NCBI GenBank assembly: GCA_003576975.1
Contig: QEVD01000025.1
Coordinates: 1 to 64,000 of the forward strand
DNA from: Candidatus Zhuqueibacterota bacterium
GTDB lineage: Bacteria; Zhuqueibacterota; Zhuqueibacteria; Zhuqueibacterales; Zhuqueibacteraceae
Direction: 5' to 3'
DNA length: 64,000 bases
Shown: piece after piece, positions 24,285 to 38,281 of the stretch
Layout: every line of letters begins with the position of its first letter
Position numbering within the stretch: the stretch's first letter is position 1
Notes under the pieces: model-generated
Databases searched by the model: none
The model's input: only the letters and a program-made list of their open reading frames with translations
What the model was told of the DNA's origin: nothing
Program-made: the position numbers and the translations under genes

Positions 24285-24443
24285 TAAATTTTTGCGGCGC
24301 GCCAGTTTTTTTAAGATTTTGTTCAAAATTTTCATGAACTTTAACCGTTGCTTCGTTGTTCAAAGAATGTCCGTAAATTCCCCTACAAGTCAAATAGATG
24401 CCGGCCTGCATTGACGATAAACATTCACGCATCGGAGGACGCC

Positions 24444-25313
24444 ATGCCTGCCTTTCGTCGTTACTCTCCACGCCGTAACTCCACGTTTGGATTCCTTGCA
24501 TTGGTAGCTGCGTTGTTGCTGACGATACTACTGGCGGCGTGCGGCAGCAGCCGCTTAACCACAGACCGCGCCTACAGCAAACTGAAGCCAAAAGAGCAAC
24601 TGCCGGATCGCGAGATACGCGAGATGCCGGAAAATCTGGTGATCAAAATTACAAATGTTGCAGATGCCGGCAAGAGCTTTCGCAACTTCATCGTGCTGTA
24701 CGTGAATGGCCAGGAAATCGCGCCAGTCGAAAAGCTCTCGAATTTCACCTCGACCTATACTTATCCGATGCGCCTGCAACATGGTGTTTATGAGGTTAAG
24801 GCCGAATATCATGTTGTGGGTTTTTGGCGTGAACAGGTGTTTGATATTATTGTTGACGAACCGGTTAAGGTTTTGCCTGATCAACGCACACTTCTGCAAA
24901 TTAAGCTGGACAAAGATGACCCCCGGCCCTTTATCATTGAACCCGCGCCGGAAGTAATCGATTCAAGGCCGATCGTGACGCGTCCGGCGCCAAATGTTAT
25001 TGTGCCTGCGCCGGTGCAACCCGTGGTTCAACCTGCGCCGCAACCGGTTGAAGCCGTGCCCTTGCCGGCAGATGCTGTCACGTTGCAAATCAATACAAGC
25101 CCTTCCGGTGCGGATGTCATCATTGATGATCGTTACTACGGTCAATCACCGGTAAAAATTGCGGTAAGCAGCGGGCAAAATCACATCGTGCAAATTTCGC
25201 GGGCCGGCTACGCCGAAGTCGTGAAAATTTTGAATGCTGCGGAGTTGCGCGAGCAGCCGTTGATGCAATTGTTGATCAAGCTCGAACCCGCGGAAGCAAA
25301 GAATCAGAATTGA
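24444..25313 (+). CDS. PEGA-domain lipoprotein
   Basis: A 289-residue exported lipoprotein. The signal peptide ends with the lipobox LLAAC, so the Cys near residue 32 would be lipidated. A beta-rich N-terminal domain (ENLVIKITNVADAGKSFRNF, YVNGQEIAPVEKLSNFTS) resembles a carbohydrate-binding or Ig-like module. A Pro/Val/Gln-rich linker (PAPVQPVVQPAPQPVEAVPL) leads to a C-terminal PEGA domain (INTSPSGADVIIDDRYYGQS). PEGA domains are typical of surface proteins. ATG 24444 is chosen for its GGAGG Shine-Dalgarno; the frame is open to 24348. The next gene is a paralogue with the same domain order. Confidence 0.78.
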   Translation: MPAFRRYSPRRNSTFGFLALVAALLLTILLAACGSSRLTTDRAYSKLKPKEQLPDREIREMPENLVIKITNVADAGKSFRNFIVLYVNGQEIAPVEKLSNFTSTYTYPMRLQHGVYEVKAEYHVVGFWREQVFDIIVDEPVKVLPDQRTLLQIKLDKDDPRPFIIEPAPEVIDSRPIVTRPAPNVIVPAPVQPVVQPAPQPVEAVPLPADAVTLQINTSPSGADVIIDDRYYGQSPVKIAVSSGQNHIVQISRAGYAEVVKILNAAELREQPLMQLLIKLEPAEAKNQN

Positions 25314-25340
25314 GGCTTTTCTGAAACTGGAATTGCTTCC

Positions 25341-25375
25341 AAAGCCGGCAAAGCGATCGCCTTGCCGGCTTTTTT
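25341..25375 (+). terminator. Rho-independent terminator after the PEGA lipoprotein gene
   Basis: 11-bp stem (25341-25351 with 25362-25372), 10-nt loop and a T-run to 25375. Confidence 0.9.
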
Positions 25376-25461
25376 GTTTGCAAGAGGCGGAAGTAATCAT
25401 TCAAACCCGAGGCAAGATCTCGTTCGATTGCCCGGCTCTTGGGATTAATTTTTTCTGAGCC

Positions 25462-25489
25462 TTGACTTTCCGCAAAAACTTGTTATTCT
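25462..25489 (+). promoter_or_regulatory. Candidate sigma-70 promoter for the second PEGA gene
   Basis: TTGACT (25462-25467), 16-nt spacer, TATTCT (25484-25489). It coincides with the earliest possible start of the open frame, which argues for the downstream ATG 25567. Confidence 0.55.
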
Positions 25490-25566
25490 TTTTGCGCCCA
25501 CGCCGCCACGGGCCGTTATTCCAAACTTTTGGTTGCGCACTTCACCTTTCAATGTATGGAATCTCT

Positions 25567-26562
25567 ATGAAACAGATGAGCAACGCTGCGGGCATGAAGC
25601 TCTTTCTTGGTTTTTTGATCGTGGGTTTGAGCGGCGCTGCCGGGCGGGTCTTGGCAGCTTCACCGTTTTTGAGCCTGCCAACGTTGACTGTCGAGAATGT
25701 CAAAACTCCGGGGTTAACGGTACAGATTGATAATGTCACGGATGATCAGAGCAGCCGTAGAAGCTCGGTCGAGTTTTTTATTGACGGCAAAAAAATCTCG
25801 CCAAGCGTTGCGCGCAAACAGGGTCGCCGCGATTATGTTTTTGAGATTGCGTTGGCGCCGGGCATTTACAAAGTCAAGGCGGTTTATCGCGCGAAATCTT
25901 TTTGGAAAGAGAAATCTTTTGATCTCATGACGCATGACGGGCACGTTCGGGTTTATCCCGCACACCGCACTTTTCTGACCATAGCATTAGACAAGAATTC
26001 CGATGGCACGCTGCGCGATAAGAAAAACTATTTTACTGAAATGACTCGGCCGCTTGCCCCCGCTGTCGCACGTGAGACCCAGCAGTACGCTTCTCCTAAC
26101 GAGGCTGCGCCAACGCCGGCAACGTCCTTAACTTCTTCACTAGCGCAACCGGCGCCCGCGGTTGAGCATATGCCGCCAACCGCGGCTTCGTCTGCTGCGC
26201 CAGCGACAAGGCCCGTCATCACGATTGCGCCGCCAGCGAGCGTGCCGGCGGCGGCGCGCGGAATCGCCCCAGCCAGCGCCTCGCAGCCAGCCGCGCCGCC
26301 AACAGAGATAATCCAGCCGAATCCGCCTCGCGCCAGGAAGATTGCCCTGCAAATTAACACTTCGCCGAGTAGCGCCGATGTTATTGTTGATGATCGGTAT
26401 CTCGGCCAATCGCCATTGACGACGTACGTGGAGCGTAGTCGTAGCCACGTGATTCAAATTTCCAAAGCCGGCTACATTGAAATAATGAGGATTATCGATG
26501 CGCGTGTGCTTGGTGACGAGAATACCTATTTGATGATCGAGAAACTGGAAGCGCAAAAATGA
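25567..26562 (+). CDS. Exported PEGA-domain protein, paralogue of the preceding gene
   Basis: A 331-residue exported protein. The signal peptide (MKLFLGFLIVGLSGAAGRVLAA) lacks a lipobox Cys, so it is secreted rather than lipidated. The N-terminal domain (PGLTVQIDNVTDDQSSRRSS, VEFFIDGKKISPSVARKQGR, YKVKAVYRAKSFWKEKSFDL) matches that of the upstream lipoprotein in layout. A long Ala/Pro/Thr-rich linker follows (about residues 160-265), then a PEGA domain (ALQINTSPSSADVIVDDRYL). Duplication and divergence of an ancestral gene is the simple explanation. It has its own promoter candidate and follows a terminator, so the two are separately transcribed. Confidence 0.75.
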   Translation: MKQMSNAAGMKLFLGFLIVGLSGAAGRVLAASPFLSLPTLTVENVKTPGLTVQIDNVTDDQSSRRSSVEFFIDGKKISPSVARKQGRRDYVFEIALAPGIYKVKAVYRAKSFWKEKSFDLMTHDGHVRVYPAHRTFLTIALDKNSDGTLRDKKNYFTEMTRPLAPAVARETQQYASPNEAAPTPATSLTSSLAQPAPAVEHMPPTAASSAAPATRPVITIAPPASVPAAARGIAPASASQPAAPPTEIIQPNPPRARKIALQINTSPSSADVIVDDRYLGQSPLTTYVERSRSHVIQISKAGYIEIMRIIDARVLGDENTYLMIEKLEAQK

Positions 26563-26784: not shown

Positions 26785-27675
26785 TTATCTCACCTCAAAC
26801 TGCCCATCCAGGCTCAACACCTCGAGTTGATTATTCCCAGCAGCGCGCACCGCGACATTCGATATCCAAATGCGATAAATCGTCCCCGGAGCGACTTGTG
26901 AGTTGACTTGAAAGTTAACCTCGAACAGGCGGCTGGGTTTCTCTTGCGGGGGCAGCGTTCTGCCCGCGTCATCGAACAACACAACGCGCAGCGTCGGGGG
27001 GCCCGTTGTGGCGATGATGTTGCTATCAAGGTTTTGCAGCGGCAGGCCAACATCGCGCGTTGCGTCGCGCGGCGACAAGCCGAAGCCTTCTGCGTTGTTG
27101 TTCACGTTGGCATGCACATCCAGTTGCACGGCGCGTAAGTCATCCGCGCTGATGACGGAAAATGGAACGAGATTGCGATTTGCGCCAGGCGCGCCCGCAC
27201 CGCTGCCGGCAATCATCACTACACGCCGGCCAGGAATGGCAAGAGGGAACAACGTGACAGTTACGTGTTGCTCGACGCCAGCTTCAATTTGCACGCCGGA
27301 AGTTACCCCGCGATATTCCAGCAAGCTTTCCACTCCGAGATTATCCGACCAGGCTTCCACCACGATGCGGCGATCTTCACCGGGCGTGACATCGAGCGAG
27401 GCCGAGAACGTCGAATCGCCGGGCGGTATGCGAATCGTCGTGTGCGCGAGCGTGTCTTGATCAAAAAAAACGTAAATTTCAATGCGATTGACTTGCTGAA
27501 TGTTCACGGATTTCCGCAGATAATTACCTGCTTCACTCCGATGCAAAACTCCTTTAACAAATTCCAGTTGTAAAGCGAGATTGGCAGGGTTTGAAGCCGT
27601 CGGCTGCGAAGATGAGCAAGCCAGCGCTGATAGTATCGCCGTTAGGACACAGAGGGATTTTAGAATAACTTTCAT
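26785..27675 (-). CDS. Lipoprotein with cohesin-like C-terminal domain
   Basis: A 296-residue lipoprotein. Signal peptide with lipobox ILSALAC (Cys near 20). The first half (about 35-160) is a beta-rich domain with FDQDTLAHTTIRIPPGDSTF. The second half (about 165-296) shows a cohesin-like pattern: LVPFSVISADDLRAVQLDVH, then PTLRVVLFDDAGRTL, RLFEVNFQVNSQVAPGTIYR and a terminal LSDAxG-like strand (QLEVLSLDGQFEV). Cohesins bind dockerins. The gene immediately upstream on this strand encodes a dockerin-containing protein, so the pair may anchor that protein to the cell surface. The domain call is mine from pattern and needs profile confirmation. Confidence 0.6.
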   Translation of the reverse strand: MKVILKSLCVLTAILSALACSSSQPTASNPANLALQLEFVKGVLHRSEAGNYLRKSVNIQQVNRIEIYVFFDQDTLAHTTIRIPPGDSTFSASLDVTPGEDRRIVVEAWSDNLGVESLLEYRGVTSGVQIEAGVEQHVTVTLFPLAIPGRRVVMIAGSGAGAPGANRNLVPFSVISADDLRAVQLDVHANVNNNAEGFGLSPRDATRDVGLPLQNLDSNIIATTGPPTLRVVLFDDAGRTLPPQEKPSRLFEVNFQVNSQVAPGTIYRIWISNVAVRAAGNNQLEVLSLDGQFEVR

Positions 27676-27780
27676 GAAGTCTTCGAGTTGCAGTCAATTC
27701 GTAAGAAATTACCGCCCAACTGGTGATTTATAGAGTTGGGCTGCGATCGCCATCATACGTGTGAAACACCGCCTCCGAGG

Positions 27781-30700
27781 TTATTGCACAATAAATCGTT
27801 CGAGTCTGCGATACTTACCCGCCACGAATTCGAGAAAATATACGCCGTTTGCCACCGGCAAACCCCTTGCATTTCGTCCCTCCCAGCTTAAGGTCCAACG
27901 TCCAGCAGGCTGCACGCCCGGCGAATCACGCCAAATCTCTTGCCCGAGCAAATTGTGAATCTTGATTTCAACAAACGAGGCCTCTGGCAAATCGTAGCGC
28001 CATTGCACCGCCGGATGCAGACGGCGGTGCAGAGGATTCGGATAGCCGGCGGTGAGATTGAAGGTTTGCGGCAACTCCGCATTCATCTCTTCTGTATGCA
28101 AATTTAGTGTGAGCAGTTCATCTGTCACGCTCAAACCGGTTGCGGCAATCACGCGATCAACCGCAAACGCCAACGGCAAATCGATTGTTTGTTCACGTTG
28201 ATTTACCGGTGAGGTTTGATCTTTCGACCAGACCAACAGCCGCAATTCATTGTTGCGAATTTTCCAGCGTGCTTCCCAGCGCCCGGCAGTTGCGCTTCCC
28301 GCTCCGGCGGGATGATCGGAAGGCCGGCCCTGCAATTTCCAGGTTGCCTGCCAGGCGCGCAGATCTTGCGAGGCTTGCCATTGCAAACGGGTTTTCGCGG
28401 CGGCGAGCGGCGCCAGCCGCAATTCGAAATCACTGCTGCCTGCGCTCACCGCGGAGCCTTCTTGCTGCAGGATGAGATCAACCAAAGCAACGACATCTGC
28501 GACATCGATCGACTCGTCGGTGAATGCGTTGCTCGCCCAACAGCTTTTGTCAATCACACTCGTACGGCGCTGCAGGATCACATCGATAACATAAAAGATA
28601 TCGCGCAAATCCAGCAGGCTGTCGAGATTGGCGTCGCCGCGATGCGGTACCCATTCGCGCAGCACAACGCTGTTGTTGCGAGTATTGCCATCGGCCGTGT
28701 CCGAACCCGTGCGGAATAAAATTGTGTTGAAGCCCTCATGCAGCGCTTCTGGTTGGAATGTGACGTTGAAGCGCGCGCCTAACGCAAGCTCCGGCACATT
28801 GATTTCTTGGCGCAACACACCGTCCAGCAGCAGGCGCGCTGTCGTCGGCGCTGAAACGCCCGGCCCGGCATTGACTACAACAAACGCTGTGTTGAAACTA
28901 TAATCCGGACTCAGGCAGTTGGTCAACGCCGCGCTCGAGATTTGCGCCTGCAAATCCGGAAATTGCTGCACCGCCAGGTTGACTCTCACAGAAATATCGC
29001 CGGCAATGGAAGCGATACGAACGGTACCGTTATAACTGCCGGGCGGGAGATTGGTCAAATCAATAGCAATCGCTAGCGTATCCGATTCCGTGCGCGTCTC
29101 GCCCGTTTGCGGGGACACGTGCAGCCAGGCTTGATCCACTGTGGCAAACCAATTGAGCGCGCCGCCTCCGGCATTGCGAATGATGAGTGTTTGCGGCGGA
29201 GGATTGGAACCAGAAGGAAAGCCGGTGAATGACAAACTCGCGGGATCGACGGCGAGCACCGGCGGTTGCGGATTCACCAGAAAATTTACGGTAATGGATT
29301 GCGTTCCAGCATTTGAATTAATGTTGAAAACACTGGAATAAGTGCCCGCACGTACGATCGTTATACTGGCGGATACCCAGATCGTATCGGTTTCCGAAGT
29401 GGTTGTGCCAGTTGAGGGAAAAACTGAGAGCCAAATGGCATCTTCACTCGTGCTCCAATTCAATGTGCCGCCGCCGGTATTGGTGATGAGCACCGGTTGA
29501 AAGGGCGGATTGACCAAACCTTCGGTTGCCGTAAAACTCAAACTCGTAGGCGTCGCGCGCAGCGCTGCCGGCAATGCGCTAATCTCGAAATCGACGTTGA
29601 TTGTGGTTTCACCGCCGTTTGACAACAAGATGAGGCTGCCGCTGTATGTGCCGGCGCGCAGATTGACCGTAGCCACACGCACAGTGATTTGATCCGTTTC
29701 CTGCGTGGTGGAGCCGGTATCCGGAAATACCGTGAGCCAGGTTTGATCGCTGCTCACGCGCCAGCGCAAGATGCTGCCGCCGCTATTCGTGATGTTGATG
29801 TTCTGCGCCGGCGGATCGGGACTGCCTTGTGTTGCCGCAAAACGCAAACGATTTGTATTCACCGCCAATCTCGGTTCCGCTGGTCTGATCACAAGCGTCA
29901 CCCCGACAACGGCGATGCCGCCGTTAGACGTGAGATTGATATTCCCCAGATACGTGCCGGCCGCCAAGCCGCCGGGATCGACGCCGACGCTCACCTGTTC
30001 GATTTGCGTGGTGATCAAGCCGCTGGCGGGGTTGAGCGCAAGCCAGGGTTGATCCGCAACAGCGTTCCAATTCAAGATGCCGCTGCCGCTGTTGCGAATC
30101 TCAAAAATTTGCCGCGGCGGCTGTTCGCTTTCTCCGAGAATTGTCGTGAAAATCAGGCTGGTGTTGGTCACGGCGATCGTCGGCGCTTCAAGCACGGTGA
30201 AGCTGATCGGTGAAGTGGTATTGTTCTCTTCATTTTGTTCAGGAATCACCAGGGTTTGATCCAAAACCAGGCTGAACAAGAATAATCCCGGCTCGAACTT
30301 GCCGAGGTTGACGCGATACTCCTGCGTTTCACCGGGCAGCAGCAGCGGCGTTTCTAGCGGAATGATGGTGGTGAATTGCTGCGTCGTTTGGCTGAACACG
30401 CGCGCGACCAGAGAGGAGACTGCTGCGGGCGCACGGCCGCGATTGCGGATGAGGAAGCGCGCCATGATCGAATCAGCGCGCGTCGGATCGACATTCAAAA
30501 TTTCCAGTGTGTCTGCGCTTAAATCCGGCAGCACGAATTGCGTGATGTTACCCGTGATGCGCGGAAATTCGGAATTGGGTTGGCGATCTGTGCCGTCAAA
30601 GACCGAAGCAATGTTGCCGTAACGCGAGGCGGCGAGTTCGAGCGCGATGCGCTTGCGTGAGGAATCGTTGGGGGGCTTGCCCAGTTGTTGCAGCTCGGAA

Positions 30701-31809
30701 ACCGGTGTGCCGAACCGATCGAAGAACCGGCTGTACACCAGATTGAAGTCCTTTTCGGTCGTATCCAACGCTGACCACTGCGCGTTGAAATGATCGTTGT
30801 CTATAGCGATAATCGCGGCCTGCGAGGGCGCAGTCTCACCGGCCGAGCCTTCTGCAAGGGACATGAGCGCATCAAGCGGTTGCGCATTTAGATCAAAGCG
30901 GCGCGCCAGCAAACGCGCGCCGGCCGGCGTTTCATACCACTGCACGATAATTTCCTCGGCCGTCAGAAACGTCAAGCTCGGTAAGGAAACATTGCGTTCG
31001 GCGATCGCGGCGGCGGGTGTGCGCACGGTTCCAGCATCATCAAACAAGCAGAGATAAACACGATCGAGGTTGTCTTCCACAACTTTCCAGGTTGCGGCAA
31101 TCAAACCGTTTGAAGAAGCCGCAAGGTCGAGTTTCTCCTCGTTCACAAAACGCGATGATATGCCTTGATACAGCGGAAAACTTTCACTTAGCGGAAGACC
31201 ATTGCTGTTGAAGTAGCGCGCCATCACCCGCGCCGGCAACTCGAGCGAGGCCAGTGCAGGTTCGAACCATGCCACCAAGACACGCCCTTTCACATCGACC
31301 ACGAGGCGCGGTCCCAATGCGCCGCCCTGCGGCTTTTCGCGAATGAAGAATTTCTCTGAGATCGGCTTCAAATCATGGTTGAAAATTCGCGCTACGATCT
31401 CGGCAGTCTCGCTGCGCAGCGATTGTTCCTGCCACACCACCCATAACGAATCGCCCGGCGTAAATACGAAATGCGGTTGCGCGACTGTGATCGTATCGCT
31501 GGCCACGGCTACAGATATGATGCCGCGGGCCGCGGGCCGGCCAATCGCATCGAATTGCCGCAGCAAAATCATGCTGCGCCCTTTATCCTCTGCCTGCCAA
31601 ACGAATGTCACGTTCTCGTTTCGATCAAAAGCCAGCGAGGGAGAACTGGCAGAATCTGTGCGCGGCAGCTCGTCAACAGCAAAATTGAAGCTGGCCGTGT
31701 CGCCGCTGGTGATTTGGCTGAAGGCGGTGGGCGCCAGAGCAAAATATATCAGACCGCATAACCACGCGCGTGCGAACAATCCTTTTTGTTTGTGAATCGT
31801 ATGTGGCAT
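27781..31809 (-). CDS. Giant secreted BACON/CARDB/dockerin protein with sorting tail
   Basis: 1342 residues from ATG 31809 (an earlier in-frame ATG at 31878 exists). The signal peptide ends near APTAFSQ. Domains in order: a repetitive strand-rich region (about 33-420) with propeller-like repeats (VTFVWQAEDK, LWVVWQEQSL, VLVAWFEPAL). Then a CARDB-like domain (about 420-535), four BACON-like domains of about 100 residues each (starting near 539, 641, 744 and 846; each has FxxxxGxxxPPxQ, WLxVxPxxG and GTYxG), a second CARDB-like domain (about 946-1050), and a dockerin type I-like pair of Ca-binding repeats (about 1055-1115: RGDANLDSLLDLRDI, ESIDVADVVALVDLIL). Last is a FlgD/T9SS-type tail (YPNPLHRR to ERFIVQ). 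Probably a surface adhesin or scaffold; no catalytic domain is recognised. Confidence 0.8.
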   Translation of the reverse strand: MPHTIHKQKGLFARAWLCGLIYFALAPTAFSQITSGDTASFNFAVDELPRTDSASSPSLAFDRNENVTFVWQAEDKGRSMILLRQFDAIGRPAARGIISVAVASDTITVAQPHFVFTPGDSLWVVWQEQSLRSETAEIVARIFNHDLKPISEKFFIREKPQGGALGPRLVVDVKGRVLVAWFEPALASLELPARVMARYFNSNGLPLSESFPLYQGISSRFVNEEKLDLAASSNGLIAATWKVVEDNLDRVYLCLFDDAGTVRTPAAAIAERNVSLPSLTFLTAEEIIVQWYETPAGARLLARRFDLNAQPLDALMSLAEGSAGETAPSQAAIIAIDNDHFNAQWSALDTTEKDFNLVYSRFFDRFGTPVSELQQLGKPPNDSSRKRIALELAASRYGNIASVFDGTDRQPNSEFPRITGNITQFVLPDLSADTLEILNVDPTRADSIMARFLIRNRGRAPAAVSSLVARVFSQTTQQFTTIIPLETPLLLPGETQEYRVNLGKFEPGLFLFSLVLDQTLVIPEQNEENNTTSPISFTVLEAPTIAVTNTSLIFTTILGESEQPPRQIFEIRNSGSGILNWNAVADQPWLALNPASGLITTQIEQVSVGVDPGGLAAGTYLGNINLTSNGGIAVVGVTLVIRPAEPRLAVNTNRLRFAATQGSPDPPAQNINITNSGGSILRWRVSSDQTWLTVFPDTGSTTQETDQITVRVATVNLRAGTYSGSLILLSNGGETTINVDFEISALPAALRATPTSLSFTATEGLVNPPFQPVLITNTGGGTLNWSTSEDAIWLSVFPSTGTTTSETDTIWVSASITIVRAGTYSSVFNINSNAGTQSITVNFLVNPQPPVLAVDPASLSFTGFPSGSNPPPQTLIIRNAGGGALNWFATVDQAWLHVSPQTGETRTESDTLAIAIDLTNLPPGSYNGTVRIASIAGDISVRVNLAVQQFPDLQAQISSAALTNCLSPDYSFNTAFVVVNAGPGVSAPTTARLLLDGVLRQEINVPELALGARFNVTFQPEALHEGFNTILFRTGSDTADGNTRNNSVVLREWVPHRGDANLDSLLDLRDIFYVIDVILQRRTSVIDKSCWASNAFTDESIDVADVVALVDLILQQEGSAVSAGSSDFELRLAPLAAAKTRLQWQASQDLRAWQATWKLQGRPSDHPAGAGSATAGRWEARWKIRNNELRLLVWSKDQTSPVNQREQTIDLPLAFAVDRVIAATGLSVTDELLTLNLHTEEMNAELPQTFNLTAGYPNPLHRRLHPAVQWRYDLPEASFVEIKIHNLLGQEIWRDSPGVQPAGRWTLSWEGRNARGLPVANGVYFLEFVAGKYRRLERFIVQ

Positions 31810-32073
31810 CTGCTTTTGCAATTGAGAAGTTTCAGTTCGCGGCGATTTTGTTGTCTTTAGATCGTGCACATTTTCCATTTTGAATTACGACATTTCAACG
31901 AGGCCAGTATTCTGCTACCTTACAGCGTTTTTCATTTGGATGAACAGAGTTTGTAGTCCCCGCCCCTTGTGGGCGGCTGTTGAAGCCATGAAATTCGCGG
32001 TTGCAACAATGCCCCACAATGTTGACAGATACAGAAATAAGATCTGTAGCAATGCACTGGCTCTAGTTTCAAT

Positions 32074-33270
32074 TTAAAGTTGAGTTTTGAGCCACAAGCC
32101 CAAACCATAACCGCGCAAATCAATAGAGCCGCCCTGCGCATTCTGGGCGCTGCCCGTGGCATAATCCGCGCTTGCGCCGATCATGGCATGCTCGGAAAGT
32201 TTCACCAACAACTGCGCGCCGGCGCGCACGACACTGGCGCGGCTGAGTTGTTGCACGCTGCTCTTGCCAAAATGATTGGCGTGCAGATAGGCGCCCGCTT
32301 GTGTGCGGCTCTTGAAACTGCGCTGCAAGGCGATTTTGGCATAGCTAGTATTGTCGAGATAATAATGCTCGGCCGGCAAAAGAGCGGCATTTGTCGCAAC
32401 GAACTTGTTGTCATCTTTCCAGATATGCGTGAACGCAAGCTGCATGCGCCATTCTCGCGTGAATTCCCAATCGAGGCTGGCGCCCGGCTCGAATTGCCAC
32501 CCTTGCTGGAAAAATTTTTCTCCAGCGAGCCGGTCATACGCGAAATACTGGCCCAGCAGGCTCATCCGCCATGCCAACACGGGATTGATGCGATTGAGTA
32601 TCATCGTGGCGACATAGCGCGCACCGGGCTGATATGTGGTTGCGCTTTCTTCGCGAAACTCAAATTGGCCGGGAACCACCAGCGTCGCGCCCCACCCCAT
32701 GCCCAGTTGATCACTTAAATTGAAGGTACGCGCGAGCGACAATTCGAGGTCGAGTCCTGCGCCGTAGCGTTGCAACGGAAAGCCCAACACATTCTCGTTG
32801 AGAACATTCACCACGGCATTTTCCTCGGCATTGAGCTTGTTTTTGCCCGTGGGCAAATTCACGCCCGCGCCCACAAACCATTTGGCCGTGCTGAAACTGT
32901 GCGAGAGACGCATGCGAACATCGCTCAGCCCGTTGAACTCACGCGCCGGCGCCGCCCCCTCGCGTGCAAAACTTCCGGCTGTGCCCAGGGTGAAATTGGT
33001 ATGCGCAAAAACCGGAAAACTGAGCGCTGTTGGCAAATAGGCCTGGTGAATCTGTTGCGTCTGTCCGCCGGACTTTAATTCCCACGACAAAAATGAAACG
33101 CCTTGCGTGAAGGAAAAAATTTCAGGTTGATATTCGAAGCGCGGTGCGCCGTGCGTTTGTGGATTCGGCTGGGCATGGAGGATAGGCGAGAGGAGCAAGC
33201 AATAGCCCGCTAAAAGTGCGGCGCGCCGGCAGAACGATTGGGGTCTAATTTTTTTGAGAGGTGCTCTCAT
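32074..33270 (-). CDS. Probable outer-membrane beta-barrel (transporter-like) protein
   Basis: A 398-residue exported protein with the signal peptide RRAALLAGYCLLLSPILHAQ. The mature part is a series of amphipathic strands with aromatic girdles (FVGAGVNLPTGKNKL, AGLDLELSLARTF, GMGWGATLVVPGQF, LAWRMSLLGQYFAYD, RMQLAFTHIWK, AKIALQRSFKSR, YGLGLWLKTQL), ending in a hydrophobic residue as barrels do. It resembles the large porin-like family annotated as transporters for hydrophobic compounds, but I cannot name a substrate. It sits between the type IX-tailed protein gene and the giant BACON/dockerin gene, so it could belong to the same surface machinery. Confidence 0.65.
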   Translation of the reverse strand: MRAPLKKIRPQSFCRRAALLAGYCLLLSPILHAQPNPQTHGAPRFEYQPEIFSFTQGVSFLSWELKSGGQTQQIHQAYLPTALSFPVFAHTNFTLGTAGSFAREGAAPAREFNGLSDVRMRLSHSFSTAKWFVGAGVNLPTGKNKLNAEENAVVNVLNENVLGFPLQRYGAGLDLELSLARTFNLSDQLGMGWGATLVVPGQFEFREESATTYQPGARYVATMILNRINPVLAWRMSLLGQYFAYDRLAGEKFFQQGWQFEPGASLDWEFTREWRMQLAFTHIWKDDNKFVATNAALLPAEHYYLDNTSYAKIALQRSFKSRTQAGAYLHANHFGKSSVQQLSRASVVRAGAQLLVKLSEHAMIGASADYATGSAQNAQGGSIDLRGYGLGLWLKTQL

Positions 33271-33377
33271 AAATCTGGCTCTGGTTAAAACTCACATCCC
33301 AAATCAATTTGCCAGCCGCTCTTTTGCCAGATTCTTCACAATGCCAAGTTGCCGAGCGGCCGGGTTCGGGTTAGATT

Positions 33378-34298
33378 CTATCGAACTAAAACCACTTTTT
33401 TGTGTTGCAAAAATTCATCGGTGATAAGCCGGTAGAAATAGATTCCGGAAGGCAAATCGCGTCCGGCATCGTCCCGGCCATCCCAGGTTAACAAATGACG
33501 CCCGCTTGCCGGAATATTCTGGAAAATGCTGCGCACTTTCCGGCCTGCTAGTGTGTAAATCTCGCATGTCACCGGCTCGGGTCGGTTCAGATCAAAACTG
33601 ATAACCGTCGAGGTGTTGAACGGATTCGGATAATTTTGGTGCAGGTGATAAGAGTTCATTTGAGAAAAATCCTTATCGTTAACGCTTGTGATCAAAGTCG
33701 TATCGCCGAAAACACGGCCGTTAATCTTTACCGCGCGCACATATTCATAAATATCGAACTGGGGGCGATAAGCAACCGGACCAACGCCCTCCTCCAGCGT
33801 GAGCCATTGTTCTTCATCCACAACGGGAAGACTATAATCGAAAACAAACTCCAACTGATCTCCGGGCTCACCCGTGAAGGTGACAACGGCCTTTCGGTAG
33901 AGCCGTATGGTATAACCTTGAAAACATGCCGTTCGCGTCATCGTATCCGGAGAACTTTTCGAAAAATCCATCAGAAGGACTTCACAACTATCGCGGTATT
34001 CATAAAATCCTCCCAGTGAATCTTCGCGAAAGTATCTCGGTCCGGATAAATTGACAACATAATAAAGCTGATTTTGCCGCCGAACCGTGTCGCTGACAAC
34101 ATACGTTTTGTAATAATCTGCACCCGGTCCGGCTGTGCCCCACATCACCCACGTGTTCCCGATTTGCAGAGGAAAAAACGAGGCCGCCGGGTTGGGTTGG
34201 CTCTGTTGTGCCATCGTTCTTTGCTGCAACAAACTCAAACTCGAGAGCATCAGTAGCACGCAGGCGCAGAGTTTCTGTGTGCTGCGGTTCTTGCCCAT
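33378..34298 (-). CDS. Secreted protein with type IX secretion (type A) sorting domain
   Basis: 306 residues from the ATG at 34298 (an earlier in-frame start at 34313 exists). The signal peptide ends near QQRTMAQ. The N-terminal domain (FFPLQIGNTWVMWGTAGPGA) resembles the FCB-type module of unknown function with PLxxGNxW. The C-terminus carries the type IX sorting signature: YHLHQNYPNPFNTSTVISFD, RKVRSIFQNIPASGRHLLTW, DLPSGIYFYRLITD and the final KKVVLVR. Such proteins are exported through the outer membrane by PorU-type machinery and either attached or released. The sorting machinery is not in the window. Confidence 0.82.
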   Translation of the reverse strand: MGKNRSTQKLCACVLLMLSSLSLLQQRTMAQQSQPNPAASFFPLQIGNTWVMWGTAGPGADYYKTYVVSDTVRRQNQLYYVVNLSGPRYFREDSLGGFYEYRDSCEVLLMDFSKSSPDTMTRTACFQGYTIRLYRKAVVTFTGEPGDQLEFVFDYSLPVVDEEQWLTLEEGVGPVAYRPQFDIYEYVRAVKINGRVFGDTTLITSVNDKDFSQMNSYHLHQNYPNPFNTSTVISFDLNRPEPVTCEIYTLAGRKVRSIFQNIPASGRHLLTWDGRDDAGRDLPSGIYFYRLITDEFLQHKKVVLVR

Positions 34299-34366
34299 TT
34301 GCTCACCCCGCAAATGATTTTAAAAAATGCGACACACGGTAAAACTTCCACTTCAGGTTCGCGGTG

Positions 34367-35701
34367 TCAGTTGGGAATCTTCCCCGTCACCACAATCGTG
34401 CCGGTGCTTGCCGGCGGAATCAGCGGCGCCGCCAGGCTCGGCGGACTCTGTAAAACATTCATCGTGGCTTGCAAAAGCTGCTGATTCCGCGCCTCCTGTG
34501 GATCGATCTCCGCGAGCTGCAACAGTTGCGCTTGACTTATCAGCGGCGTTGCAATGGCATCCAACTCCTGCTGCGCTTCTTGAAAATTAGGATCGATACG
34601 CAGCGCTTCGGTGAATGCGGATTGCGCTTGCGGAATCTTGAGACTATCAGCAAAATCTAGCCCGCGGCAAAACGCCACAAATGCGAGCGTGCTTTCCGTC
34701 GGCAATTTTTGAATTTCTTCCCGCTCGGTCACACTCAAACGTATGCCGAGTTGTTGGATGAGCGCAAAGGCGAGCTGTTTTTCAAGTTGCAGAATATCGC
34801 TCAAACGCCCGCTGGTGCGCACAGTTTTCGCCACCAGTTCGCTGGTTGAGGATTGGATGATGCCGGCATCCAATTGCAAGCTCGAAGTGCCCAGAGCCGT
34901 TGCGCCGCCAATCACTACACGATCGGCGCCCAAAACTCGTCCCGCGCGCGGCGCGGTGAAACTGTCATAAAGCTGGGAGGTCGAAGCTGAAATCTCATTC
35001 AGCAAAACTTCCATTTTCGTGCGCTCGACCAGGCGCAAGCTTTTTACTTTGCCGAGGTCCGTTGTCAGAATCGCGGCCAGGCCCTTGAGCAGGGCATTCC
35101 ATTCCGCGCGTTCTGAAACATTGCGGAAATACAACACAGCAACGGTGTTGGAGGGCGGCTTGGCCAGGCTGCGCGTTCTCTCGTCATGCAACGCTTTCTC
35201 GATTTCCAATTCTGCCAGTTTCAGTGACAGCCGGCTGATGCGGCTTTGCAATTGCTTGCTCATGGCGTCAAAAAACGGCCGGCGGCGATATTCACCGTAT
35301 GCCGCGATGGCTTCCGCATAGTTGCCTTGCTGCTCCTGGCAATAGCCGAGAAAGAACAGGGTTCTGCCGTCGCCCGGATTCAACCGATTGGCGCGTTGCA
35401 ACACTGCGGCAGCGCGTTCGAAATCGCGCATGTAAAACAAGGCGATGCCCAACTCGCGCAGATGAACAGCATTACGCGTATCCTTTTGCGCGGCCTGGAA
35501 CAGTTCTTCGACGGCGTACGCATAATCGCCGCGCTGCAACGCGCTGCGGCCTTTGCGGAAATGCGCATCGCCGCAGCCTAAGAGCAGAATCGCGCTGAAC
35601 ATTAGAACCGCGGCCAGCGCGCGGCGCCTGCCCGTGAATCGCATCAACTGTTTTGCTCTGCTTGAAGTCATTGCCAGCCAATCGCCTGAGATCACCATCA
35701 T
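34367..35701 (-). CDS. TPR lipoprotein with CsgG/FlgO-like domain
   Basis: A 444-residue lipoprotein. The N-terminal hydrophobic stretch ends in the lipobox LLLGC (Cys near 43). Next come TPR repeats (about 45-135: KGRSALQRGDYAYAVEELFQ, LGIALFYMRDFERAAAVLQR, FFLGYCQEQQGNYAEAIAAY), a coiled linker (about 140-180), then a FlgO/CsgG-like alpha/beta domain (about 185-325: VAVLYFRNVSERAEWNALLK, LRLVERTKMEVLLNEISAST, GRVLGADRVVIGGATALGTS) and a further TPR-like segment. The CsgG family forms outer-membrane lipoprotein pores, while FlgO sits at the outer membrane. The start is uncertain; in-frame ATGs at 35671 and 35644 would shorten the signal. Gap to the paralogue upstream is 6 nt. Confidence 0.72.
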   Translation of the reverse strand: MMVISGDWLAMTSSRAKQLMRFTGRRRALAAVLMFSAILLLGCGDAHFRKGRSALQRGDYAYAVEELFQAAQKDTRNAVHLRELGIALFYMRDFERAAAVLQRANRLNPGDGRTLFFLGYCQEQQGNYAEAIAAYGEYRRRPFFDAMSKQLQSRISRLSLKLAELEIEKALHDERTRSLAKPPSNTVAVLYFRNVSERAEWNALLKGLAAILTTDLGKVKSLRLVERTKMEVLLNEISASTSQLYDSFTAPRAGRVLGADRVVIGGATALGTSSLQLDAGIIQSSTSELVAKTVRTSGRLSDILQLEKQLAFALIQQLGIRLSVTEREEIQKLPTESTLAFVAFCRGLDFADSLKIPQAQSAFTEALRIDPNFQEAQQELDAIATPLISQAQLLQLAEIDPQEARNQQLLQATMNVLQSPPSLAAPLIPPASTGTIVVTGKIPN

Positions 35702-35707
35702 CCTGTT

Positions 35708-36748
35708 TTAGCTTTTTTGAAATGTGTGCAAGAGCATAAGCTTGTCTTGCGCCATCTTGAACGAAGGCGCCAATTTCAAGGCCCTGGCCAGCATCGTGCG
35801 CGCATCGTGGTAGCGTTCTTGATCGAGCATGTTCAGCGCCTCCGAATAGGCCATCGCCGCTTCCAGCGGAATTTCCTTCTGTTGCAGGCGGTCAATGCGT
35901 TCTTCATCGACTTTGTTGACGGCCACTTCAAGATTCTCGCTGATTTTGATTGCGAGTTTCTTCGCCAAATTCAACACTTCATCAGGCGAGCCTTCGACAT
36001 GATCGGTTTTGATGATCTCGCTGGTTTCGGTTTTTACCAGGCGTACATCAATGCGCAATTTCTTATCGATTTTCATATAGCTGCCGATGAGAACCGATTG
36101 CGCGCCAAGCAGCTTGCCCAGGCGCACGGCGAATTCTGGATTGACCAGCGGCTGGCCTTGCACCGTCGCCTCGCTGCGCTGAATTTCTTCGGTGATGAAT
36201 TGAATGCGCTCACGCTCCACGACTTTGAGTTTGGTCAGCGCCGCAAGATCGGTGATCACGATATCCGCCAGGCCCTTGCCGAGATTGGCGAGCTTGTTCG
36301 CGTCGTTGATCGAGTTGTTGTCGAAATCCAGAATCGCAACGGTTTTGATGCCGGCTTCCGAGGTCAGTTGCCAATAATTGCCCAACACTTCTTTGCGCGC
36401 CGTGGCCCAGCCGCGCATGACCGCAGGATGGCTCAAATACGCATCACGCGGCTCATATGCCGCGTCGAGCTTGAGAATTTCGGCAAAGCTGGTTTGCACG
36501 CGCTCCTCGTTTTGTTTGGCAACGTTGCAGAACGCGAGAAATTCCCACGCTTCCACTCGATCCGGCTTCGAAAGTGTGGAGGTGGAGATCAGTTTTTCGA
36601 GCAGCGCGACGGCCTCGTCAATGCGGCCGGCGCGGAAATGCGATTTCGCCCGTTCGAGTTCCTGATTCTCGGCGGCAAGCGCCGGCAACGCGAACAGCAG
36701 GGCTGCTGCAAGCAAGCGGCTGAGAGAGTGAACAAAGGATTGCTTCAT
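35708..36748 (-). CDS. TPR and CsgG/FlgO-like exported protein
   Basis: A 346-residue protein with a Sec signal peptide ending near ALAA (residue 26). TPR segment (about 30-100: AKSHFRAGRIDEAVALLEKL), then a CsgG/FlgO-like domain (about 130-275: VAILDFDNNSINDANKLANL, GKGLADIVITDLAAL, LKVVERERIQFITEEIQRSE, LLGAQSVLIGSYMKIDKKLR) and a C-terminal TPR-like part. No lipobox. AAGGAG at good spacing before ATG 36748. It shares order and motifs with the downstream gene, evidence for tandem duplication. Both probably act in the periplasm or at the outer membrane, as sensing or secretion-associated scaffold proteins. Confidence 0.72.
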   Translation of the reverse strand: MKQSFVHSLSRLLAAALLFALPALAAENQELERAKSHFRAGRIDEAVALLEKLISTSTLSKPDRVEAWEFLAFCNVAKQNEERVQTSFAEILKLDAAYEPRDAYLSHPAVMRGWATARKEVLGNYWQLTSEAGIKTVAILDFDNNSINDANKLANLGKGLADIVITDLAALTKLKVVERERIQFITEEIQRSEATVQGQPLVNPEFAVRLGKLLGAQSVLIGSYMKIDKKLRIDVRLVKTETSEIIKTDHVEGSPDEVLNLAKKLAIKISENLEVAVNKVDEERIDRLQQKEIPLEAAMAYSEALNMLDQERYHDARTMLARALKLAPSFKMAQDKLMLLHTFQKS

Positions 36749-37214: not shown

Positions 37215-38129
37215 TCAACTCTTCCGTTGCCACCATCTCGTTTTCTGCCGCAGCAGGCGTTGAATCGCGGGAAGCATAGCATTGGCCGTGCGCTCGCCTT
37301 CGTTGATTAATTCACGAATTTTGCGGAATTCGGCCCAATGCACGTGGCCAACATTCGGTCGAATGGCGAGATCGGCCAGTTGCAGCAGCATGTGATTGAA
37401 GCGCCGATTGGTGATCGTGCTGGTGCGAAAGATGATGTCCACGACATTTTCAAACTCCGGCAAATTATCCAGGGTTTGCCCGACATCCACGGCGATCACG
37501 ATGTCCGCGCCCAATGCGCGGCACGCCAGAATCGGCACCGGCGCGACGACCGCGCCATCCACCATTTGATAACCGTGAAGATTTACCGGCGGTAAAAAGC
37601 CGGGGATCGACATGCTCGCCTGCACCGCCTGGCGAATACGGCCTTCACGAAATACGATTTCTTCGCCGGTGGTCAAATCTGTCGCAACACAAGCGAAGGG
37701 AATTTGCGTGTCTTCGAAATTCTTATCCTCCAAAATAAAATTAACCGCCTTGGTAATGCGCCAGCCGCCAACCAGCGAGGGCCGGCTGTGCGCGAGATTG
37801 ATCACAATGCGCTCTCTCACGTGTGTTGCGACTTGCGCAAAGAAATTTTCCGCGGCATTCTTTTTTTTGAAGAGATCGAGGCCGCTTTCTTTGAATTCCT
37901 CGCTGTAAATGAATTCGAGCGCGCGTTTTTCCACCCTGCTGGTTTGCGGATGCAGCGCATAGGTTGCGCCCACCACCGCGCCGATGCTGGTGCCGGCAAC
38001 CATGTCCACCGGAATGTGATGCTCTTCGAAAACTTTGAGCACGCCGATATGCGCCAGGCCGCGTGCGCCGCCGCCGCCCAGCGCCAGGCCGAGGCGCGGG
38101 CGCTGCCAAATTTTTTTGAATGATGCCAT
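37215..38129 (-). CDS. Patatin-like phospholipase (RssA family)
   Basis: A serine lipid acylhydrolase with the patatin Ser-Asp dyad, 304 residues. Oxyanion loop GGGGARGLAHIGVLK (about 19-33), nucleophile in GTSIG (Ser near 49), and the catalytic Asp in MVDGAVVAPVPI (Asp near 192). Signal peptide absent, so cytoplasmic or membrane-peripheral. RssA-type bacterial patatins act on membrane lipids; the exact substrate is unknown. ATG 38129 is used; a TTG at 38135 is also in frame and neither has a good Shine-Dalgarno. The C-terminus is Arg/Lys-rich (RQKTRWWQRKS). Confidence 0.9.
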   Translation of the reverse strand: MASFKKIWQRPRLGLALGGGGARGLAHIGVLKVFEEHHIPVDMVAGTSIGAVVGATYALHPQTSRVEKRALEFIYSEEFKESGLDLFKKKNAAENFFAQVATHVRERIVINLAHSRPSLVGGWRITKAVNFILEDKNFEDTQIPFACVATDLTTGEEIVFREGRIRQAVQASMSIPGFLPPVNLHGYQMVDGAVVAPVPILACRALGADIVIAVDVGQTLDNLPEFENVVDIIFRTSTITNRRFNHMLLQLADLAIRPNVGHVHWAEFRKIRELINEGERTANAMLPAIQRLLRQKTRWWQRKS

Positions 38130-38281
38130 TGACAAAAGTCTTTCGCTGTGACAATAAAACGTGTAAACGAATCGTATGACGGGTTATGCGAGCAGGAGGT
38201 GGGTTGCCGGCCGTCGGCGGTTCATGCGACAAAAACGGATGAAAATTTCTCCTGACTATTCACGCTGAGAATGAACCAGCA

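Follow-up and report, generated by a model that had tools for sequence, protein, structure and literature searches.

Genes at the locus

The window analysed here is a stretch of 64,000 nucleotides (positions 1 to 64,000 of contig QEVD01000025.1, assembly GCA_003576975.1) from a Candidatus Zhuqueibacterota bacterium, a relative of candidate division KSB1 (KSB1). Six minus-strand open reading frames (ORFs), running in one direction with intergenic gaps of 6 to 195 bp, occupy positions 26785 to 36748. An ORF check of the window confirmed them as called, and all six are present where an earlier sequence-only reading of this DNA had placed them. Five of the six form a conserved module, in the order CsgG1, CsgG2, outer-membrane barrel, giant secreted protein and cohesin-like lipoprotein; in transcription order the remaining gene, for a small protein with a type IX secretion system (T9SS) tail, lies between CsgG2 and the barrel.

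CsgG1 (35708..36748, minus strand) encodes 346 amino acids (aa) with a signal peptide, an N-terminal tetratricopeptide repeat (TPR), a TolB-N/FlgO/CsgG-like domain (residues ~132-276, about 35921-36355) and C-terminal TPR-like hairpins. CsgG2 (34367..35701, minus strand, 444 aa) has a lipobox (LLLGC), a TPR, a CsgG-like domain, a further TPR and a C-terminal tail. The small T9SS type A-tailed protein (33378..34313, minus strand, 311 aa) is followed by the outer-membrane beta-barrel (32074..33270, minus strand, 398 aa) and by the giant (27781..31878, minus strand, 1365 aa), which contains CARDB, four BACON domains, dockerin-like loops and a T9SS tail. The run closes with a lipoprotein of 296 aa (26785..27675, minus strand) whose C-terminal domain is cohesin-like (about 26791-27243). 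These library names denote a likely family only and are not proof of function. A scan for promoters and terminators gave no excess over shuffled sequence.

Conservation of the module

CsgG1 and CsgG2 were searched in 60 relatives of the same class, from which 36 regions were retrieved and compared, and a scan of named genomes added 79 loci. Gene calls in the relatives are mechanical ORFs, and many of these genomes are fragmented metagenome assemblies. CsgG1, CsgG2 and the barrel adjoin one another in almost every family that carries them. Searching the 60 class relatives with a barrel profile yielded 49 strong copies. Of these, 45 share a contig with a CsgG-like gene no more than 13 kb away (no more than 500 bp in 35 cases), and at least two of the remaining four are near a contig end. 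The core of CsgG1, CsgG2 and barrel was found in KSB1, Zixibacteria, Rhodothermia, Ignavibacteria, Eisenbacteria, Fermentibacteria and Raymondbacteria, with the order CsgG1, CsgG2, barrel kept in the first three of these and in others, while loci of Deltaproteobacteria, Nitrospirae and Gemmatimonadetes have CsgG-like genes without the barrel. A lipoprotein gene often lies 3' of the barrel in KSB1, and the lipoprotein family differs by lineage.

CsgG2 and the barrel are separated by a T9SS-tailed protein, usually a giant, in some KSB1 families and in Rhodothermia and Ignavibacteria; in the family of the window genome such a protein usually follows the barrel. Among non-core module genes, 28 of 104 have T9SS tails; for the remaining genes of these loci the figure is 19 of 399 (Fisher p 7e-10, an indicative value as the loci are related). 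Six loci (L154-L159) were picked because CsgG2 and barrel lie far apart in them; every gap held a T9SS-tailed protein, of 1083-3120 aa. A tree of 50 barrels falls into two halves, 25 of them forming a separate clade with the giant in between, and the presence of a giant requires only 3 changes on this tree. A side observation from family f5 and genome G045 is a protein resembling sulfatase-modifying factor (FGE), whose gene separates CsgG2 from the giant (L067:17069-18211, also L069, L070 and L073).

The sequence-only reading had treated all six genes as one locus and had named gene-order comparison as its check. That comparison upheld the unit for five genes, co-conserved across phyla, and not for the gene of the 311-aa protein, which is missing at the same position in both congeners of the window genome (G001 and G002) and in a genome of the same family (G004). 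This gene is therefore a recent local insertion outside the conserved module. The same reading could not name a described system that joins CsgG-type proteins, type IX tails and a cohesin-dockerin pair. For the conserved unit, in which CsgG-like TPR proteins occur with a barrel, a T9SS-tailed giant and a cohesin/dockerin pair, we likewise found no published description in the open-access papers searched on CsgG with KSB1, PEGA, T9SS or the phyla of the Fibrobacterota-Chlorobiota-Bacteroidota (FCB) group.

The CsgG-like proteins

Pfam CsgG matched CsgG1 at 41.0 bits and CsgG2 at 35.3 bits (cut-off 20.8), over profile positions 5-105 of 210 only, and TPRs were matched by Pfam in both (TPR_16 in CsgG1). 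They had been described as two CsgG/FlgO-like lipoproteins; both carry the domain, but only the 444-aa CsgG2 has a clear lipobox, its Cys nearly invariant among 36 homologs, and CsgG1 has an ordinary signal peptide. They had also been called duplicated. They are indeed paralogs, but at about 32% identity in the shared domain their sequences point to an old divergence and not to a recent duplication.

The AlphaFold2 model of CsgG1 is confident, with a predicted local distance difference test (pLDDT) score of 90. Compared with known structures by VIA-align, its domain was closest to TolB-N (Z 13.6) and FlgT (Z 13.5), followed by PelC (Z 11.3), CsgG (Z 10.7) and LpoB (Z 10.6); the root mean square deviation (rmsd) was 5.0 to CsgG versus 2.5-2.9 to TolB and LpoB. 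The model also aligned with the periplasmic sensor of CadC over 189 residues (Z 10.0, rmsd 4.7-4.8). The two transmembrane beta-hairpins that form the pore of CsgG are absent from the model: strands 218-227 and 230-239 join at a two-residue turn, with no further hairpins. Because these are the strands that bear the membrane hairpins in CsgG, the model makes a CsgG-type pore unlikely, and the term "pore-like" used in the sequence-only reading does not suit a protein resembling TolB-N, FlgT, PelC and LpoB.

The barrel

The fold call for the barrel rests on an AlphaFold2 model (pLDDT 88), on which about 16 strands were counted, and not on Pfam, where its sole curated-family match was a marginal one to Phenol_MetA_deg (22.3 bits against 22). 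A sequence search of the PDB with the barrel profile found nothing. The best structural neighbours of the model include CdiB (Z 19.8), CymA (Z 19.0) and PelBC (Z 18.5), with AlgE also matched; as modelled, these neighbours are generic and do not discriminate a function.

The giant and its secretion

Pfam recognised four BACON_2 domains, CARDB and FlgD_ig in the giant, and sequence repeats suggest a possible beta-propeller-like N-terminus. Its T9SS type A tail (TIGR04183 of NCBIfam) scored 23.7 bits, barely above the cut-off of 23; the 311-aa protein scored 41.8 bits with the same model and matched FlgD_ig/Por_Secre_tail in Pfam. All 13 module giants matched FlgD_ig, and 12 of the 13 also Por_Secre_tail, with E of 0.5 or lower. 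The SprA translocon is present in the window genome, over cut-off, and therefore the giant can be exported by the T9SS. SprA was matched in all 60 class relatives, 59 of them over cut-off.

Cohesin-like and dockerin-like domains

The lipobox Cys of the 296-aa lipoprotein is invariant, and when its profile was compared with the PDB the only matches at E up to 5 were two cohesins, both weak. In the giant, a dockerin-like pair of Ca-binding, EF-hand-like loops (DANLDSLLDLRD / NAFTDESIDVAD, at 28471..28638 on the minus strand) is conserved in both congeners and in the same-family genome G004. A Zixibacterium locus (L086) has a cohesin lipoprotein (29.7 bits) adjoining a dockerin giant (32.5 bits), both over the Pfam cut-offs, and the G004 homolog (L042) also has an over-threshold cohesin (31.7 bits). 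Dockerins exceed the cut-off only in L041, L052 and L086, with 25.4 bits in G003 and 23.7 bits in G045. A search of the window genome gave one dockerin match and two cohesin matches, and since both domains are so rare in this genome, a chance pairing appears unlikely. The cohesin-dockerin pair proposed in the sequence-only reading is thus clear and, by sequence, convincing in relatives, but weak in the window, where the candidate dockerin consists of the two EF-hand-like loops. Elsewhere in the window genome (G000), one open frame of 861 aa with cohesin and dockerin matches lies just upstream of SprA (C561:19525-20073, with SprA at C561:21787-23988); it has the only dockerin of the genome over cut-off.

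The PEGA kinase and other neighbours

The sequence-only reading missed a partner, a Ser/Thr kinase whose PEGA repeats are C-terminal. Of the 53 loci that could be tested, 18 have it immediately upstream of CsgG1, and in 17 of the 18 a single transmembrane-like segment separates kinase and PEGA. In the window genus the kinase is not at the module. Its ortholog is retained, unlinked, at G000:C627:10808-12598, with 53% identity (650 bits) to the G004 module kinase, the next paralog scoring 187.

Genes for proteins with FHA domains lie near module copies L051 and L101. At L051:16055-17776 a KSB1 protein with an FHA domain and a FliN C-terminal domain adjoins the module, and in an Ignavibacteria locus (L109:10710-15502) CsgG1 is followed by a TPR protein (837 aa) and a CHASE2-guanylate cyclase (717 aa). 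In several relatives the genes after CsgG1 are similar in length to this pair.

Within the window, a tandem pair of PEGA-domain paralogs, of which the first is a lipoprotein, is encoded at 24348-26562 on the plus strand, convergent with the module. They were considered as module members and dropped, as they are not at the same place in the congeners. On the same strand as the module, 466 bp upstream of CsgG1, lies a patatin-like phospholipase gene close to RssA (37215-38135, minus strand).

Proposed function

In Porphyromonas gingivalis the TPR lipoprotein PorE binds the barrel PorP, which in turn binds type B cargo, and Flavobacterium johnsoniae encodes such sets of TPR lipoprotein, barrel and cargo as operons (PMC9143113, PMC12618676). 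We tentatively propose that the present module anchors a giant T9SS cargo at the cell surface, as an analogous but non-homologous counterpart of PorE, PorP and their cargo, because its parts correspond in kind and arrangement but are drawn from other families. Although tentative, with odds somewhat below even, this reading seems to us the likeliest of those considered. It is favoured by the gene linkage and kept order, the enrichment of T9SS tails inside the module, the T9SS-tailed proteins in all six large gaps, the barrel tree, the presence of SprA, the adjoining cohesin and dockerin of L086 and the rarity of both domains in the window genome, and the kinase upstream of CsgG1. The module would receive the giant protein after its passage across the outer membrane through SprA and hold it on the outer surface. 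The neighbouring 16-strand barrel would be the dedicated outer-membrane partner of the giant, and the periplasmic lipoprotein CsgG2, together with CsgG1, would provide a TPR/TolB-N-like scaffold under the barrel and a tie to the periplasm or cell wall. In the lineage of the window and some others, the cohesin of the co-encoded lipoprotein could, to judge from its sequence, grip the dockerin of the giant. The transmembrane Ser/Thr kinase with its extracytoplasmic PEGA repeats, which is beside the module in many relatives, probably monitors or regulates assembly.

The main rival explanation is a trans-envelope sensor in which the giant, cohesin lipoprotein and barrel would sense surface contact or load and the TPR/TolB-N-like CsgG proteins would relay this to the PEGA part of the kinase, or to the CHASE2 cyclase in Ignavibacteria. 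The position of the kinase directly 5' of CsgG1 with one transmembrane segment before PEGA, its retention as an unlinked ortholog in the window genus, the FHA proteins and CHASE2-guanylate cyclase close by, and the match of the CsgG1 model to CadC all speak for such a sensor. Against this, 35 of the 53 loci have no kinase directly upstream, TolB-N-like domains serve structural roles in TolB, FlgT and PelC as well, and regulation can coexist with anchoring; we consider a sensor rather doubtful as the explanation of the module. A trans-envelope signalling apparatus specific to the FCB group, in which a giant T9SS protein held by cohesin lipoprotein and barrel reports surface contact and stacked TPR/TolB-N-like proteins carry the signal to the PEGA kinase, we judge unlikely. 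An exporter of polysaccharide or protein resembling Pel, with CsgG1 and CsgG2 as a PelC/CsgG-like ring under the barrel, would agree with the likeness of CsgG1 to PelC and of the barrel to PelBC, CdiB and AlgE, the combination of TPR, ring and barrel being reminiscent of PelB/PelC. However, 16-strand barrels resemble one another generically, the giants have T9SS tails and hence a route of their own, and no synthase or glycosyltransferase recurred in the annotated subset of module neighbours; such an exporter is improbable.

Two further explanations have very little left in their favour. Secretion of curli-like amyloid through CsgG pores would account for the over-threshold Pfam CsgG matches and for a profile match to CsgG structures (E 6e-4), but only half of the CsgG profile is matched, the CsgG1 model has a short hairpin, no membrane strands and a fold nearer to TolB and LpoB, and neither Pfam nor NCBIfam recognised CsgA, CsgB, CsgE or CsgF in the six genes or in four neighbours. 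On the structure model and the missing partner genes, curli secretion was rejected as largely refuted. A chance cluster of surface genes with no common function could be argued from the abundance of T9SS tails in the window genome, where Por_Secre_tail is ordinary (136 matches), and from the lineage-specific insertion of the 311-aa gene; linkage and order kept across phyla refute it for the other five genes, and it too is extremely unlikely.

Several points weigh against an anchoring module. The link between SprA and the module is genomic only. SprA occurs in 60 of 60 relatives and the barrel in only about 36, and therefore the module is not needed for the T9SS as such. Many KSB1 modules (families f3, f7, f8 and f10) lack a linked giant. 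The module tails are of type A and the strand count of the barrel model is about 16, not 14; type A tails in Bacteroidota use PorV, with no dedicated barrel. The NCBIfam PorP/SprF model matched neither the window barrel nor any of 40 homologs. The lipoprotein of the window scored 16.4 bits with Pfam Cohesin (PF00963), below the cut-off of 24.1, and Pfam Dockerin_1 (PF00404) gave the window giant no score, its loops notwithstanding. Gene content, order, conservation, predicted folds, T9SS tails and the presence of SprA are demonstrated; we infer every physical interaction among the module proteins, the anchoring role, the tether and the part of the kinase.

If the anchoring proposal is true, giant surface proteins are placed by a second, unrelated barrel-plus-lipoprotein module in T9SS bacteria well beyond the studied Bacteroidota, and genes now labelled just "CsgG", "TPR" or "hypothetical" gain names and partners. 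Cultures are few in the phyla that carry the module. The cultivable Rhodothermia are among its carriers; in the cultivable Longimonas halophila, for example, the module (L094) contains a T9SS-tailed giant of 2429 aa.

Comparison with known systems

The closest parallels are PorE/PorP/PG1035 and SprF/SprB, in which, as in the module, a TPR outer-membrane lipoprotein, a barrel and a large T9SS cargo are co-encoded, with a dedicated barrel per cargo such as we propose here (PMC9143113, PMC12618676). The module differs in that its barrel, of about 16 strands, falls outside the PorP/SprF family by hidden Markov model, its cargo tail is of type A, its TPR lipoprotein lacks an OmpA domain and carries a TolB-N/CsgG-like one, and a cohesin lipoprotein and a PEGA kinase are added. 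With the CsgG curli channel it has in common an alpha/beta domain recognised by Pfam CsgG over cut-off, but its proteins lack the transmembrane hairpins, carry added TPRs and are not accompanied by curli genes. A PelC-like fold, TPRs and a barrel are common to the module and the PelB/PelC exporter, whereas in the module TPR and barrel are on separate proteins, no synthase is seen among the annotated neighbours, and the genes are linked to a T9SS cargo. The CsgG1 fold is closest to TolB-N and FlgT; the module lacks the beta-propeller of TolB, and its genes, unlike FlgO/FlgP/FlgT, are unrelated to flagella. As in cellulosomes, a cohesin-like lipoprotein stands beside a protein with dockerin or dockerin-like loops, but the module has no scaffoldin array: an outer-membrane lipoprotein bears its single cohesin, and the partner is a non-enzymatic T9SS protein.

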